Notes under the pieces: generated by a model | Told to the model about the DNA's origin: nothing | Database searches by the model: none | Seen by the model: the letters and a program-made list of their open reading frames with translations, nothing else | Assembly: GCA_016868785.1 (NCBI GenBank) | Contig: VGFS01000012.1 | Span: 1 to 52,562 of the forward strand | Source: Bacteroidota bacterium | Lineage (GTDB): Bacteria > Bacteroidota > Bacteroidia > NS11-12g > UBA955 | Reading direction: 5' to 3' | DNA length: 52,562 nucleotides | Made by a program: the position numbers and the translations under genes | Part shown: in pieces, positions 38,864 to 47,039 of the stretch | Layout of the letters: every line of letters starts with the position of its first letter | Position numbering within the stretch: position 1 is the first letter of the stretch

Positions 38864-39045
38864 TTTAAAGGAATCAGAGCCACAAACACAATAAGGGTCT
38901 ACCACCCCCAAGAATTGGATAAATATTTCTCAAAATCAATGGCATGTCAATGAGATAGACCCGTTGGGTGAGCTTTGGCGTTGTATTTTAACTTGCGGCG
39001 GGGCGTTCGGCTTCAGGGCGGGTAGGGGGTTTGGTAAACAAAGAT

Positions 39046-39053
39046 TACCTTTG
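39046..39053 (+). promoter_or_regulatory. -7 promoter element of icmF
   Basis: TACCTTTG matches TAnnTTTG exactly, 18 bases before the icmF ATG. About 200 bases separate icmF from the divergent lipoprotein gene; apart from this element I see no clear structure there. Confidence 0.6.
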
Positions 39054-39071
39054 CACTACAAAGCCAAATCC

Positions 39072-42000
39072 ATGGAAACAACTGTGTATGTTCCGAAGAA
39101 CAAAGTGAGGGTGGTTACGGCTGCCAGCTTGTTCGATGGTCACGATGCCGCAATCAACGTTATGCGTCGCATCATTCAATCCACCGGTTGCGAGGTGATC
39201 CATTTGGGTCATGACCGCAGCGTGCAGGAGGTGGTAGAAACAGCCATTCAAGAGGATGCAAATGCCATCGCCATGACCAGCTATCAGGGCGGTCACAACG
39301 AGTATTTCAAGTATATGTACGATTTACTCAAGGAACGGGGTGCGGAGCACATCAAAATTTTTGGCGGCGGCGGCGGCGTGATTTTGCCGGAGGAGATCAA
39401 AGAACTCATGGATTACGGCATTACTCGGATTTATTCTCCCGACGATGGGCGTACCATGGGATTGCAGGGCATGATTAATGATTTGGTGATGCAGTCTGAT
39501 TATCCCACGGGCAATGCGTTGCAACAGGAGCAACAGTTGTTGAATGCGGGGGTAGAAGGCAAGCGGGCCGTCGCGCGGTTGATTTCAGCAGCTGAAAATT
39601 ACCCCGAACAACATCAGGTGGTATTGGATGGATTACGCAGTCAAGCAAAGGGGTTGAAAAGTCCGGTATTGGGCATTACTGGCACCGGTGGTGCAGGGAA
39701 AAGTAGCTTGGTGGATGAGTTGGTACGCAGGTTCCTTGCCGATTTCCCAGATAAAAAGTTGGCCATTATATCCATCGACCCATCGAAAAGAAAAACGGGA
39801 GGGGCTCTGCTGGGCGACCGTATTCGCATGAATAGTATCAACCACGACCGTGTGTACATGCGCTCGATGGCTACACGTCAAGCCAATTTGGCGTTGAGTT
39901 CACACGTAGACGATGCGGTAAGTATTTTGAAAGTCGCGGGGTATGATTTGATTGTGGTAGAAACCAGCGGAATTGGTCAGAGCGATACAATGATTACCGA
40001 GCACAGTGATTTGGCTTTGTATGTGATGACGCCAGAATATGGTGCGGCCACGCAGTTGGAGAAGATCGACATGCTTGATTATGCGGATGTGGTTGCATTG
40101 AACAAGTTCGACAAACGCGGTGCTTTGGATGCGTTGCGCGATGTACGGAAGCAATTCCAGCGCAACCATAAATTGTTCGAAACTGAGGTTGATTTGATGC
40201 CGGTATTTGGCACAATCGCGTCGCAGTTTAATGACCCTGGTATGAACAGTTTGTACCGGAGGTTGATGGATACCATCGCCCAGAAAACTGGGGCCGCTTT
40301 GGGAAGTCAGTACGCCTCGGGCGCTGAGATGAGCGAAAAAATCTTCATCATTCCTCCACACAGAAATCGTTATTTGAGTGAAATCGCGGAGAACAACCGC
40401 CAATACGATGAACAGGCGCGTGCGCAGCGAAAAATCGCCCAGCGAATGTATGCCTTGACGGAGTCGATTCAACAATTGAAAGAGAGTGGTGCCGCTGTTG
40501 ATTTGACGTCGCAGTTGGAAGCCGAATTGGCCAAAGTGTCGGCGGAATTAAACCCGAAGAACAAGGCTTTGGTGGAAGGTTGGAGCGGGGTTCGGGCCTT
40601 GTACAAAGCGCCAGACTACGTATTCAAGGTGCGCGACAAAGAACTTCGGATGGCCACCCATACCGAGAGTTTGAGTCATACCCAGGTACCAAAAATAAGC
40701 ACGCCCCGTTATGAAGCTTGGGGTGATTTGCTGCATTGGCAGTTGCAAGAAAACGTGCCGGGCGAGTTTCCTTACACCGCAGGGATTTATCCGTTTAAGC
40801 GCGAGGGTGAGGATCCAACCCGCATGTTTGCTGGGGAAGGTGGACCGGAGCGAACCAACAAGCGGTTTCATTACGTGAGTTTGGGTATGCCTGCCAAGCG
40901 GTTAAGTACGGCGTTCGACAGTGTTACTTTGTACGGACGGGATCCCCACACACGTCCTGATATTTATGGAAAAATTGGCAATGCGGGGGTGAGTATTTGT
41001 TGTTTGGACGATGCCAAAAAACTGTATTCTGGCTTCAATTTGGCAGATCCCAAAACTTCGGTGAGTATGACCATCAACGGTCCGGCACCGATGCTGTTAG
41101 GATTCTTGATGAATGCCGCAATTGATCAGCAATGTGAATTGTACATCAAGTCGCAAGGTTTGGAAGATTCGGTGAATGCGAAAATTGATGCCATGTATGC
41201 GGAAAAGGGGTTGGCGCGACCCAGGTACAATGGTCCGTTACCTGAGGGTAATGATGGGTTGGGATTGATGTTGCTGGGTGTAACGGGCGAGGATGTGTTG
41301 GAGAAGGCCAAGTACGAAGAGATCAAAGCGTGGACCTTGAGTCAGGTTCGCGGAACGGTTCAGGCCGATATTTTGAAAGAAGACCAAGCGCAGAATACGT
41401 GTATTTTCAGTACCGAATTTGCGTTGCGTTTGATGGGTGATGTACAGCATTATTTCATCGCCAACAAGGTGAGGAATTTTTACAGTGTGAGTATCAGCGG
41501 ATACCACATTGCCGAGGCGGGAGCCAACCCCATTACGCAGTTGGCTTTTACGTTGAGCAACGGATTTACTTACGTTGAATACTACTTGAGTAGGGGCATG
41601 TACATCGATGATTTTGCACCGAACTTGAGCTTCTTCTTTAGCAACGGTATCGACCCTGAATACGCGGTCATCGGTCGGGTGGCGCGCAGAATCTGGGCCA
41701 AGGCCATGAAGTTGAAATACGGCGGGAATGCGCGTTCTCAGATGTTGAAGTATCATATCCAGACCAGCGGACGCAGTTTGCACGCCCAGGAGATTGATTT
41801 CAACGATATCAGAACCACTTTGCAGGCGCTGTATGCGATTTACGACAACTGCAACAGTTTGCACACCAATGCTTACGACGAGGCCATTACAACACCTACG
41901 GAGGAGAGTGTGCGCAGGGCGATGGCCATTCAGTTGATCATCAACCGGGAGTTGGGATTGGCGAAGAATGAGAATCCTTTGCAAGGAAGCTTCATCATAG

Positions 42001-42449
42001 AGGAGCTCACGGATTTGGTGGAAGAAGCGGTGTTGGCTGAGTTTGATCGCATTACCGAGCGCGGCGGCGTGTTGGGGGCGATGGAAACGATGTATCAACG
42101 CGGAAAAATCCAGGAAGAGAGTTTGTACTATGAAACGTTGAAGCATACCGGTGAGTTTCCGATCATTGGGGTGAATACTTTCCTGAGTTCCAAAGGGTCT
42201 CCCACGGTGTTGCCGGGTGAGGTGATTCGCAGTACCGATGAGGAGAAGCAATTCCAAATTCAGAAGGTAGCCAATCAGCACGCGTTCTTTGGTGATAAGC
42301 GCAATGCCTTGTTGCTGCGTTTGCAGGAGAAAGCCATTGCCAACGAGAACCTTTTTGCGGAGTTGATGGAAGCCTGTAAGGTGTGCACGTTGGGTGAAAT
42401 CACTGAGGCGTTGTTCTCGGTAGGTGGACAGTATCGCCGGAATATGTAA
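39072..42449 (+). CDS. icmF: Fused isobutyryl-CoA mutase IcmF
   Basis: A 1125-residue fusion that uses adenosylcobalamin to interconvert isobutyryl-CoA and n-butyryl-CoA (family activity; related acyl-CoAs are possible). Residues about 1-140 are the B12-binding domain, with DGHDAA at 22-27 supplying the lower-ligand His24. Residues about 190-450 are a MeaB-like G-protein chaperone with P-loop '[12 protein letters not shown]' near 201-212 and NKFDKRG. The C-terminal about 560 residues are the mutase TIM barrel, with '[20 protein letters not shown]' as in IcmF and '[18 protein letters not shown]'. The ATG at 39072 gives the family start. It implies B12 acquisition or synthesis, not seen in this window. 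Confidence 0.95.
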
Positions 42450-42487: not shown

Positions 42488-42530
42488 TTGTATGTACACG
42501 GGACTGAGTCACAGGGTTGGGTCTTTTTTG

Positions 42531-43565
42531 ATGCCTAAATTTTCTAAAATAAGCGGCTATTGCTTGCTCGCATTGCTAGCGATGCCTTTCGTTAGCGGCT
42601 GTAAAATGGAGGTCGTTACCGACGGGATGGTCAACGACGATGTGTTTATCAAACAGAAAAATCAGTCGCTGTTTTTGAAAGTGACGGGTGACATCGGGAG
42701 CAGGAAATTGCTGCTAATTGTACATGGCGGTCCGGGTGGGAACAGTCTGGATTACCGCGATTCGATGATTAAAGCCGTGATTGAGCCCAACATGGCTGTG
42801 GGTTATTGGGATCAACGGTTTGGTGGGAACTCCCAAGGCAATGCGGGAGCCAGTGGCCTAGCAGATTACCGCGAGGATTTGCTGACGGTGGTGAAATTCT
42901 TGCGGACGAAGTACGGGGCCGATTTGAAAATCTATCTGATGGGGCACAGTTGGGGCGGTTTTTTGACGCCTTATTTTTTGGGTGATGCCGACAATCAACA
43001 ATGGATTTCGGGATGGATTCAGGTGGATGGTGCCCACAATTACCCGTTGAATGATTCCCTCACGGAGGATATGTTGGCGAAGCGGGCAGCCCTGGAAATA
43101 GGGGCGAATCGCAATGTGGCGCACTGGACAGAGGTGTTGGATTACTGCAATGCCCACAATGTGTCTGATGGCTATGAGGTTTCGGTGAAGATGAATGGGT
43201 ATGCCCATGAAGCGGAGGCACTGATGGATTCTGTTTTCGCGCCCTCAGGGAGTTACAATAAAGAGCGGTCCTCGGCCTATAGAAACAACGCTATCAATCA
43301 GTTGATTACTGCCCTGTTGCGGGTGGATTCGCCAACATACGATACCGATCCGGACGTTTATTTGGGGCGCATTCAGGTGCCAGCTTTGCTACTGTGGGGT
43401 AGGTTTGATTTTGTGTGTCCCCCACCTTTGTGCGATGATTTGAACGGGAAAATTGGCAGTCAAGACAAAACAGTTCAGTACTTTGAGCATTCTGGTCATT
43501 CGCCCATGATGAATGAGCCCATATTGTTTTGGGAAAGTGTGTTGGATTGGGTGATTAAACATTGA
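42531..43565 (+). CDS. Alpha/beta hydrolase lipoprotein, prolyl aminopeptidase-like
   Basis: A 344-residue protein from the ATG at 42531, which begins a good lipoprotein signal (MPKFSKISGYCLLALLAMP, lipobox FVSGC). An in-frame ATG at 42492 adds 13 residues and is only 4 bases after a perfect -7 element, so a leaderless longer form is also possible. The mature part has the S33-type oxyanion motif VHGGPGG, the nucleophile elbow GHSWGG, an acid region 'GRFDFVCPP' and the His in 'FEHSGHSP'. This matches prolyl aminopeptidase-like alpha/beta hydrolases. The substrate is not known. The gene follows icmF with about 80 bases between and precedes an exported protein by 10 bases. Confidence 0.83.
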   Translation: MPKFSKISGYCLLALLAMPFVSGCKMEVVTDGMVNDDVFIKQKNQSLFLKVTGDIGSRKLLLIVHGGPGGNSLDYRDSMIKAVIEPNMAVGYWDQRFGGNSQGNAGASGLADYREDLLTVVKFLRTKYGADLKIYLMGHSWGGFLTPYFLGDADNQQWISGWIQVDGAHNYPLNDSLTEDMLAKRAALEIGANRNVAHWTEVLDYCNAHNVSDGYEVSVKMNGYAHEAEALMDSVFAPSGSYNKERSSAYRNNAINQLITALLRVDSPTYDTDPDVYLGRIQVPALLLWGRFDFVCPPPLCDDLNGKIGSQDKTVQYFEHSGHSPMMNEPILFWESVLDWVIKH

Positions 43566-43575
43566 TTTTGGGAAG

Positions 43576-44361
43576 ATGAAATTGATGATAAACGGATTGT
43601 TACAAAAAGGGTTGATGCTGATTGCCTTGGGGATAATCGGCGTTCCATTGTCTGCCAGCATGGATTCGACGCAAGTATTTGCGGGCGACAATCAAGCGAT
43701 GGTGTTAAAACCCTCGCCACTGCCTCGGAAGCAGATGATGCGCGAAACACTGTCGTGGAATCCCCACCACGATACCCAAGGGTTGTTCCCTTTTCGATGG
43801 GGGAAGTTGATGAGTCCGGTTTCATCGAGAGGCACGGTGGCAAGTGGGTTTATGCTGTCGAATGAGTCGAAGGGGTTTCATGTTCGGTTCGACAACCCCT
43901 ACAAGTTGAAAACGGTGAGTTTTCCGCGGAAAAATTACATGGCCAAAGTGCGCAGTCGTAGCATCGGCATGGAGTTGGGATATTATTCTCATCCCAGTTT
44001 GCATCGGAATATTTATGTGCTAGGCAACACGCAGTGGAAGTATCAAGCCCGAAAGCATTGGAATTATTCGTTGACCTTGGGTGCTGGATACAGTCGTACG
44101 TTTTTGAACAATCCTACCTACAAGTTAAAGGATGGGGAATTTCATCGCGTGCCCTTGGCGGGTTACAATTATTTGGCGTTGCAGATGGGCACAGCGGCGG
44201 GGTATCGGATTAAGGGGGGTGCATCGGTTTATATGGGGTATTCCATATTGTCGTTGGCACCGTATAACTGGTTTTTTATACCCCGAAAACAATTGCAGTT
44301 GGGATTGTCGGTTCCTGCCTCGGTGTTTACCAAGCGAGCGACTAGGAATCTCCCAAAATAA
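43576..44361 (+). CDS. Exported protein of unknown function, possibly outer-membrane barrel-like
   Basis: A 261-residue protein with a signal peptide (MKLMINGLLQKGLMLIALGI). The mature part has a low-complexity first third and then alternating strands with many Tyr, Gly and aromatic positions ('YNYLALQMGTAAGYRIKGGA', 'YMGYSILSLAPYNWFF'), compatible with a small beta-barrel or beta-sandwich. The last 20 bases overlap the remnant dioxygenase reading frame on the other strand, so the true C-terminus may have been shaped by the rearrangement at 44342-44562. It follows the hydrolase gene by 10 bases. Confidence 0.6.
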   Translation: MKLMINGLLQKGLMLIALGIIGVPLSASMDSTQVFAGDNQAMVLKPSPLPRKQMMRETLSWNPHHDTQGLFPFRWGKLMSPVSSRGTVASGFMLSNESKGFHVRFDNPYKLKTVSFPRKNYMAKVRSRSIGMELGYYSHPSLHRNIYVLGNTQWKYQARKHWNYSLTLGAGYSRTFLNNPTYKLKDGEFHRVPLAGYNYLALQMGTAAGYRIKGGASVYMGYSILSLAPYNWFFIPRKQLQLGLSVPASVFTKRATRNLPK

Positions 44362-44480
44362 AGGAGGTCATGGCCAGCGATCCCATCACACACTGGTCGT
44401 TAAAATACTTAGGGGTTCCGTTGGGCAGTCGTGCACCTAAGGTGTACAACAGGGGCAGGTAATGTTCCGGCCGAAGGCGT
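44342..44480 (-). pseudogene. 3' remnant of a DODA-type (LigB) extradiol dioxygenase gene
   Basis: On the minus strand an open frame without a start encodes about 45 residues ending at a TAG (44342-44344). It reads RPEHYLPLLYTLGA, then a short variable part, then 'YFNDQCVMGSLAMTSF'. This is the C-terminal signature of 4,5-DOPA-dioxygenase-like proteins (E. coli YgiD type), including the PEHYLPLLY His region. The homologous N-terminal 220 or so residues are missing: to the right the DNA turns into the end of a tex gene. The exact junction lies around 44465-44490. Confidence 0.72.
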
Positions 44481-44562
44481 GTCATTGTCGCAGCGGGTAA
44501 AAGTGCGTGTATTGGAAGTGGATCGCGTGCGAAAACGCATACAGTTGACCATGAAGTTTTGA
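44473..44562 (+). pseudogene. 3' remnant of a tex-like S1 RNA-binding protein gene
   Basis: On the plus strand the frame ending at the TGA 44560-44562 encodes VSLSQRVKVRVLEVDRVRK followed by RIQLTMKF. This is the last strand pair of an S1 domain as found at the C-terminus of Tex/YhgF transcription-accessory proteins. A stop codon lies upstream in frame at 44410, and the intervening sequence belongs to the dioxygenase remnant, so about 700 residues of Tex are absent. No start codon context is evident. Confidence 0.72.
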
Positions 44563-44584
44563 GGTTTCACAAACAACAATTGAC

Positions 44585-44592
44585 TAACTTTG
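44585..44592 (+). promoter_or_regulatory. -7 promoter element of hutU
   Basis: TAACTTTG matches TAnnTTTG exactly, 13 bases before the hutU ATG. A TTTG at 44558-44561 is 23 bases upstream, a slightly long spacer, and lies in the end of the tex remnant. Confidence 0.6.
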
Positions 44593-44605: not shown

Positions 44606-46282
44606 ATGAGCGAATTCACAGGCAAATCACGGGTATTGAAGGCGCCCACGGGCAGCAAATTGAATTGTAAAGGTTGGGTTCAGGAGGCGGCGTACCGCAT
44701 GTTGCACAACAACTTGGATTGCGATGTGGCTGAACGTCCGGAAGACCTGATTGTTTATGGTGGATTGGGAAAAGCCGCCCGTAACTGGCCTGCTTTTGAT
44801 GATATTTGTCGCGCCCTGCTCGACCTCAACGACGATGAAACTTTGATGGTTCAGAGCGGAAAGCCTGTGGCAATTTTGCCTACCCACAAAGACGCGCCCC
44901 GAGTATTGATAAGCAATTCGCAGCTGGTGCCAAATTGGGCCAACTGGGATCATTTCCGTGAATTGGAGTCGAAAGGTCTGATGATGTACGGTCAGATGAC
45001 TGCGGGCAGTTGGATTTACATTGGTTCGCAGGGGATTGTTCAAGGAACTTACGAAACATATGCGGAGTGTGCCAACCAACATTTTGGGGGTACATTGAAG
45101 GGTACGTTGAATGTCACGGCTGGATTGGGGGGTATGGGTGGAGCGCAGCCGCTGGCCATTACCATGAACGAGGGTGTGGCGTTGGTGGCTGAGGTAGAGG
45201 AGTGGCGGATCCGCAAGCGGTTGGAAACCCGTTATTTGGATGTGATGGCCCGCGACATTGATCAAGGGATAGACATGGCTTTGGCCGCGAAAGAGCGTGG
45301 CGATGCAGTTAGCATCGGGGTGTTGTGTAATGCTGTTGAATTGCTGTCGCGCCTCATCGCACGCGGTGTTGTGCCGGATACCCTCACCGACCAAACCAGT
45401 GCTCATGACCCATTGGTTGGGTATTATCCTACAGATATGGATGTGGAGGCGGCCGATAAATTGCGCAAAACGGATCCAGAGAAATACACGGAGTTGAGTT
45501 ATAAGACCATGGTGCAGCATGTGGAGTTGATGTTGGAATTGCAGGAGATGGGCAGCATTACCTTCGATTACGGCAACAATTTGCGGGGCAGGGCGTTGGA
45601 GAAGGGATTGAAGAACGCGTTTGATTTTCCTGGGTTTGTACCGGCGTACATTCGTCCATTGTTTTGTCAGGGCAAAGGCCCTTTCCGATGGGTGGCTTTG
45701 AGTGGAGATCCGGAGGATATTTACGTAACGGATCGCAAGATTTTGGAATTGTTCCCAGAGAACGAGAGTTTGAAGCGATGGATAGGGATGGCGCAGGAGC
45801 GCATTGAGTTTCAGGGGTTGCCGGCCCGCATTTGTTGGTTGGGTCAGGGCGAACGCCAGAAGGCAGCATTGGCATTCAACGAGTTGGTAAGGACGGGGGC
45901 GGTAAAGGCTCCTATTGTGATAGGTCGCGACCATTTGGATACGGGTTCAGTGGCCTCGCCAAACCGCGAGACTGAGGCGATGATGGATGGTTCGGATGCG
46001 GTGGCCGATTGGCCAATTTTGAACGCATTTGTGAACGTGGCGGGTGGCGCGAGTTGGGTAAGTTTGCACCATGGCGGGGGCGTGGGGATGGGTTATAGCA
46101 TCCACAGTGGGATGGTGATTGTGGCGGATGGTACCGACGATGCGGAACAGCGCTTGCGCAGGGTGTTGCACAACGACCCAGGTATGGGTGTGGTGCGACA
46201 TGCGGATGCGGGTTATGAAATTGCCAAAGAAACCGCCAAGCAACACGGACTGGATTTGTACAGCCGTTTGCACGGCGAGTGA
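44606..46282 (+). CDS. hutU: Urocanate hydratase HutU
   Basis: A 558-residue urocanase, converting urocanate to 4-imidazolone-5-propanoate in histidine degradation, with a tightly bound NAD. Clear landmarks are '[18 protein letters not shown]', '[13 protein letters not shown]', '[15 protein letters not shown]', '[20 protein letters not shown]', '[13 protein letters not shown]', '[14 protein letters not shown]' and '[20 protein letters not shown]'. Full length for the family. HutH, HutI and HutG are not in the window, so it is a stand-alone gene here, downstream of the rearranged region. The toxin gene is convergent 4 bases away. Confidence 0.97.
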
Positions 46283-46286
46283 TTTG

Positions 46287-46634
46287 CTAAACGGCCAAAA
46301 TGGTCTGAAGGCTTTTTTTAAGTTGCTCTGCTTGTGAGCTGGGTAATTCTCCCAATTTTTTGATGAGTCGTTGATTGTCGATGCTTCGGATTTGATCCAC
46401 GATAACGTCGCTTGGTTCAGTGAGTCCGGTTGTTTGGGATTCGCTCAGGGGGAGGTGAACGCGGAGCAGGGTGGCGGATGATAATTGGGTGGTTAGTGGA
46501 CAAACGACGCTGGTTGATAGGATTCCTTGAATCAATTCGCTGTGCACCACAACCACGGGGCGGGTTTTGCCGACCTCATGTCCTTTTTTGGGGTTGAGGT
46601 TGGCCAGGTAGATTTCAAAAGGCTTGGTGACCAT
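46287..46634 (-). CDS. MazF/PemK-type toxin
   Basis: A 115-residue MazF-like endoribonuclease. The sequence 'FEIYLANLNPKKGHEVGKTRPVVVV' carries the family G-x-E-x-x-K-x-R-P-x-V core, followed by 'CPLTTQ' and 'DVIVDQIRSIDNQRL', which complete the SH3-like fold. Toxins of this family cut single-stranded RNA and arrest growth; activity is neutralised by the upstream antitoxin. The start is 2 bases after the antitoxin stop, so translation is probably coupled. The gene ends 4 bases from the convergent hutU gene. Confidence 0.88.
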   Translation of the reverse strand: MVTKPFEIYLANLNPKKGHEVGKTRPVVVVHSELIQGILSTSVVCPLTTQLSSATLLRVHLPLSESQTTGLTEPSDVIVDQIRSIDNQRLIKKLGELPSSQAEQLKKSLQTILAV

Positions 46635-46636
46635 GA

Positions 46637-46906
46637 TTAATCTTCCATTAATTCGTCAATGGCGTCAAAATCTGCCATGGCTTCGCGGGAGCTGTTATAA
46701 ATGACTGCGGCTTCATTGACCAATTGAAGGCGGGTTTGATTTTCAATGATGCTTTTGGTGTGAGCATCTAGTGTTTCTACGATGAATTTGTTGCGCGAGA
46801 GGGATAGGCCATCAGACAGTCGGTCAATTTCTGATAGTAGGTAACGAGGTAGTTTTAAGGAGATCATGACAATGTCTGGTTTATTGAGTTCTTTGTACGA
46901 TTTCAT
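46637..46906 (-). CDS. Antitoxin, ribbon-helix-helix type
   Basis: An 89-residue protein. Residues about 13-50 read 'VMISLKLPRYLLSEIDRLSD' then 'LSLSRNKFIVETLDAH', a ribbon-helix-helix DNA-binding pattern with a beta strand followed by two helices. The acidic C-terminus ('MADFDAIDELMED') is likely to insert into the toxin. I chose the ATG at 46906, preceded by a GGAGG-like sequence, over a longer hydrophobic extension to 46993 that lies in the AT-rich promoter. Together with the downstream MazF it forms a two-gene toxin-antitoxin operon that is probably autoregulated. Confidence 0.8.
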   Translation of the reverse strand: MKSYKELNKPDIVMISLKLPRYLLSEIDRLSDGLSLSRNKFIVETLDAHTKSIIENQTRLQLVNEAAVIYNSSREAMADFDAIDELMED

Positions 46907-46926
46907 ATTTTGGTCCTCCGAAATTA

Positions 46927-46965
46927 GATATAATACAAAGATATACAAAAGCGATATATAATAAA
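46927..46965 (-). promoter_or_regulatory. Promoter/operator of the toxin-antitoxin operon with three 13-bp direct repeats
   Basis: GATATA occurs at 46927, 46940 and 46953, an exact 13-base period, within an AT-rich stretch. The minus-strand -7 element TATCTTTG (46936-46943) overlaps the first and second repeats. Arrays of short direct repeats like this are typical operators for ribbon-helix-helix antitoxins. Confidence 0.45.
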
Positions 46966-47039
46966 AACATATTTGCATTTGTGTTTTGTGCAACTCGAAA
47001 CGCCCAAAACCTATCCGGATTTCCTTTGTTTCTCACGAT

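Follow-up and report, generated by a model that had tools for sequence, protein, structure and literature searches.

Probable deletion scar between the 3' remnants of divergent DODA and tex genes upstream of hutU in an aquatic Bacteroidota genome

Gene loss by deletion between short homologies is known from small bacterial genomes. For the locus described here the closest intact counterpart is found in a congener, G014 (DDYM01000025.1, UBA2234; locus L024), where an alpha/beta hydrolase gene and a hypothetical gene are followed by a full DODA gene on the minus strand (296 aa), a full tex gene on the plus strand (725 aa) and hutU. We analyzed a stretch of 52,562 nucleotides (the window; contig VGFS01000012.1 of assembly GCA_016868785.1, Bacteroidota bacterium), which has the same flanking genes in the same orientation but is about 2.9 kb shorter than the G014 locus and retains only the 3' ends of DODA and tex. 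The features of the window that are needed in the following are:

38964..42449, plus strand: IcmF (fused isobutyryl-CoA mutase), left context; NF045497, 1766 bits, ORF start codon uncertain
42492..43565, plus strand: alpha/beta hydrolase, left flank; Pfam matches, counterpart in G014
43576..44361, plus strand: hypothetical protein gene, left flank; 56% identity to the G014 counterpart
44342..44471, minus strand: DODA remnant, last ~42 codons and stop; ~250 N-terminal codons gone
44467..44471, no strand: junction, bases common to the DODA and tex sides (CCGGC and neighbours)
44467..44562, plus strand: tex remnant, last 31 codons and stop; ~694 N-terminal codons gone
44585..44592, plus strand: predicted hutU -7 promoter box, TAACTTTG, 21 bp before the ATG and beyond the deletion
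44606..46282, plus strand: hutU (urocanate hydratase), right flank, intact; TIGR01228, 941 bits, located after tex in intact loci

A first-pass annotation had read the minus strand from 44342 as the C-terminus of a DODA-type extradiol dioxygenase and the plus strand up to 44562 as the C-terminus of Tex, and both remnants found their counterparts in protein searches (NF007914, PF00575 and the G014 proteins). The minus-strand ORF (44342-44485) matched the end of the NCBIfam profile NF007914 (4,5-DOPA-extradiol-dioxygenase; positions 222-262 of 262, E 2.7e-5) and shared 86% identity over 42 aa with the C-terminal end of the full-length DODA of G014 (E 1.7e-23 in a small search set). The listed ATG of this ORF (44485) lies inside tex DNA and is an accidental start; its initial five residues (MTRLR) are the antisense of the tex piece, hence the DODA homology proper begins at about 44470. 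The Pfam LigB catalytic domain is present in G014 DODA and gave no match in the remnant, and judged by its sequence the piece is a remnant and not a functional member of the LigB superfamily (YgiD/DODA). On the other side, the plus-strand piece matched the second half of the S1 domain (PF00575, positions 43-74 of 74, E 1.7e-5). The S1 match alone does not specify tex, as models of ribosomal protein S1 match the piece too; we name it Tex because residues 694-725 of the 725 in G014 Tex align to 44464-44559 with 88% identity, and because of its place before hutU. At the DNA level, the stretch from the tex piece on into hutU is 82-87% identical to tex of G001, G005 and G014. Tex_N, the Tex central region, the YqgF-like domain and the HHH domain were all found in G014 Tex, and none of them in the remnant.

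The first-pass annotation had also placed the join near 44470, with about 3 kb absent, and had explained it by one deletion that took the 5' parts of two divergent genes. This is what the comparison with G014 brought out: the matches stop at L024:2024 and restart at L024:4939, both sides meet and overlap in the window at 44467-44471, the additional DNA of G014 lies exactly there, and in G014 these flanks surround both divergent genes in full length. We therefore regard the site, with a probability of roughly 0.93, as the scar of a single event in this lineage that deleted about 2.9 kb. The event would have removed the divergent DODA-tex promoter region together with ~85% of DODA and ~96% of tex, joining the two 3' ends at a microhomology. 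When DODA of G012 is set against tex of G001 at the breakpoint, at most seven bases are common (TCCGGCG), and the microhomology at the time of the deletion was probably 4-6 bp, as estimated from ancestral breakpoint bases that were themselves inferred from relatives at 72-87% identity. Repeats at the junction were only short ones within the window, at chance level. Replication slippage or an end-joining-like event would be the likely mechanism.

As an alternative, the real genome could hold an intact pair whose ends were wrongly joined during assembly, or the contig could be a strain chimera. The assembly is fragmented (2.07 Mb in 79 contigs, with a reported completeness of 100%) and all named relatives were assembled from metagenomes; moreover, the contig of one relative, G002, starts at exactly the equivalent base, so that this point may be troublesome in assembly, or polymorphic. 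Against a mis-join speaks that only ~5 bp are common to both sides, an overlap of a length that does not lead k-mer assemblers astray, and that both flanks are native. For the left flank this follows from the 3' ends of the hypothetical gene and DODA, which overlap convergently by 20 bp in the window and in G014 alike. The rest of the assembly contains neither gene: the search for intact tex or ygiD-like genes that had been proposed in the first-pass annotation gave no second tex or LigB/DODA gene, as across the genome neither Tex_YqgF nor, above the cut-off, LigB was matched, and a search with the whole Tex returned, besides the stub, only partial matches in other proteins (~31-43% identity, S1/HHH regions). 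Finally, relatives carry contiguous yet different deletions of the same pair. An assembly error had been held equally possible; given the native flanks and the parallel losses at the locus, we find it quite improbable.

The contig of G002 (L027, position 1; also L063, DBCP01000116.1) begins exactly at the breakpoint-equivalent base, and no further tex piece was found in the G002 genome. Possibly, this contig edge results from a mixture of strains with deleted and intact alleles, which may then coexist in one population; it is also possible that the edge is a coincidence.

The direction of the change can be read from the outgroup. In G017 the order is DODA (minus), a small ORF, tex (plus) and hutU (plus), and tex is located upstream of hutU also in G018, G020 and G023, which shows that the pair is ancestral and that the window has undergone a loss rather than its relatives a gain. 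The divergent dioxygenase/tex neighbours, for which a comparison of gene order had been suggested, were thus found in both G014 and G017. Among the nearest relatives, G001 (sister to the window's genome on hutU, 96/97, and left unplaced in the rpoB tree as it has too little rpoB) carries the C-terminal 244 codons of Tex, with the contig ending there, and in G012 (sister on rpoB, 95/97) DODA is complete and 356 codons of tex are present before the contig ends. Since these genomes retain tex or DODA sequence, the deletion in the window is its own and fairly recent.

Other congeners have lost the pair in other ways, with deletions that start just behind IcmF. G004 and G009 have IcmF, a short unrelated filler that differs between the two, ~10 tex codons and hutU; in G010 IcmF is followed by ~30 codons of DODA and by the promoter of hutU, and of tex only the extreme end remains; in G008 and G013 no remnant is detectable between IcmF and hutU. 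Five scar types are found at the locus. A single genus-wide loss was considered and rejected, as tex or DODA is intact in G014, G005, G012 and G001 and the scars are unlike one another. By sequence comparison there are at least three independent losses of the pair in the genus and probably five, although G004 and G009 belong to one hutU clade and possibly go back to one common event; the deletion in the window is one of several such losses in this genus of aquatic Bacteroidota. G012 and G014 are 94% identical in DODA-tex and 98% at the end of IcmF, vs. 87% in rpoB, which argues that the locus recombines between species, and together with partly discordant gene trees this recombination blurs the exact number of losses. 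The IcmF-hutU interval is also variable in content. The alpha/beta hydrolase is absent at the equivalent place in G004, G009, G010, G008, G013 and G012, and the last of these has, between IcmF and DODA (L032 1428-6250), a gene for an ECF-type sigma factor and a number of hypothetical genes in place of the hydrolase and the hypothetical gene. The match of G004 (L061, CAMBTR010000062.1) is titled Chryseobacterium gleum, yet hutU and rpoB group it with an uncultured Bacteroidota genus, and the title is probably wrong.

The frames of both remnants are without stops and their differences to relatives lie mostly in third codon positions (5, 2 and 16 at the three positions for DODA vs. G014; 4, 2 and 12 for tex vs. 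G001). This bias implies that most of the divergence arose while the genes were functional; over such short stretches it is suggestive only of a fairly recent deletion. The same open frames and third-position differences could be taken to mean that the fusion created functional small genes (44342-44485, minus; 44431-44562, plus), but recent loss alone predicts open frames over 30-42 codons, and the start codons are accidental ones located in the DNA of the partner gene. G010 keeps only the extreme end of tex and G008 and G013 no detectable remnant before hutU, and a search of Rfam gave no structured RNA match at the scar. A function of the scar is not evident, small genes of this kind have hardly any probability, and as remains of a deletion both pieces would most likely be non-functional.

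Another reading, to which we give almost no credence, is that the 3' end of tex serves as an integration site for mobile elements, with the stub as a displaced copy of the attachment site. It draws on the G002 contig start and on G025, a genome of another (sister) family whose tex stub has its start a few codons at most from the same position. The partner of the stub in the window is the 3' end of DODA, though, and not element DNA; the genome has no second tex copy, viral contigs yield no relative, and the matches to phage records have the look of host DNA that was carried along (S1/pnp host genes, unannotated fragments). The stub in G025 (L111 3213-3320) resembles that of the window in that only the C-terminal ~35 tex codons are kept and the genome has no Tex_YqgF match, but it lies between genes for a LacI-type regulator and a DEAD-box helicase, with neither DODA nor hutU adjacent. 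It is possible that its start near the breakpoint of the window is a coincidence.

Every scar ends upstream of a conserved box. TAHHTTTG is located 20-21 bp before the hutU ATG in 10 of the 10 congeners for which the hutU start is available, in agreement with the -7 box consensus of Bacteroidota sigma-A, TAnnTTTG (TAHHTTTG; PMC6847099). A TTG 23 bp upstream, a possible -33 element, lies within the tex stop region and is lost in G010. Seen across these genomes, the box before hutU probably sets the right-hand limit of the deletions. In the simplest reading, the very last stretch of the tex region would be preserved by selection on hutU, and hutU, having its own predicted promoter between the tex stop and its start, would not have been silenced by the loss of tex and is probably still expressed. 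The spacer before the box (44563-44584) is GTTTCACAAAC in the window and a near-palindrome, GTTTGGCAAAC, in several congeners; perhaps it is an operator. Directly downstream of hutU (46287-46993, minus strand) there is a gene for a PemK/MazF-like toxin, together with one that likely encodes the antitoxin and has no family match.

The loss of Tex had been thought notable in the first-pass annotation since Tex is usually conserved. This needs to be toned down: a Tex_YqgF match is missing from the majority of congeners and from roughly half of the sister family as sampled, in a survey where part of the genomes are incomplete, and with Tex loss common in the group the surprise is modest. In the literature on tex loss in Bacteroidota and on microhomology deletions in genome reduction we found nothing directly relevant.

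Taken further, DODA-tex could be a flexible locus, with repeated deletion up to the hutU promoter, a recurrent breakpoint at about Tex residue 695 and re-spread of alleles between species by recombination. We think this unlikely, but if it is true, the dispensability of tex in free-living bacteria is put to the test in a repeated natural experiment. For the window itself, the preferred reading of a single lineage-specific deletion gives a recent and precisely mapped loss of the widely conserved, transcription-associated tex, with intact and variously deleted states in sister species, and thereby a clean small case of parallel gene loss that is bounded by the promoter of a neighbour. It is also a warning for annotators, as stubs such as the DODA and tex remnants are not genes.

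As an ordinary trace of gene loss, the scar leaves general views unchanged. It is like known short-homology deletions in that one event cuts out the middle, both 3' remnants stay behind, and the microhomology at the join is a few bases long. No categorical difference sets it apart; what is unusual is the survival, within one genus, of the intact gene pair alongside several versions of the locus that were deleted independently.
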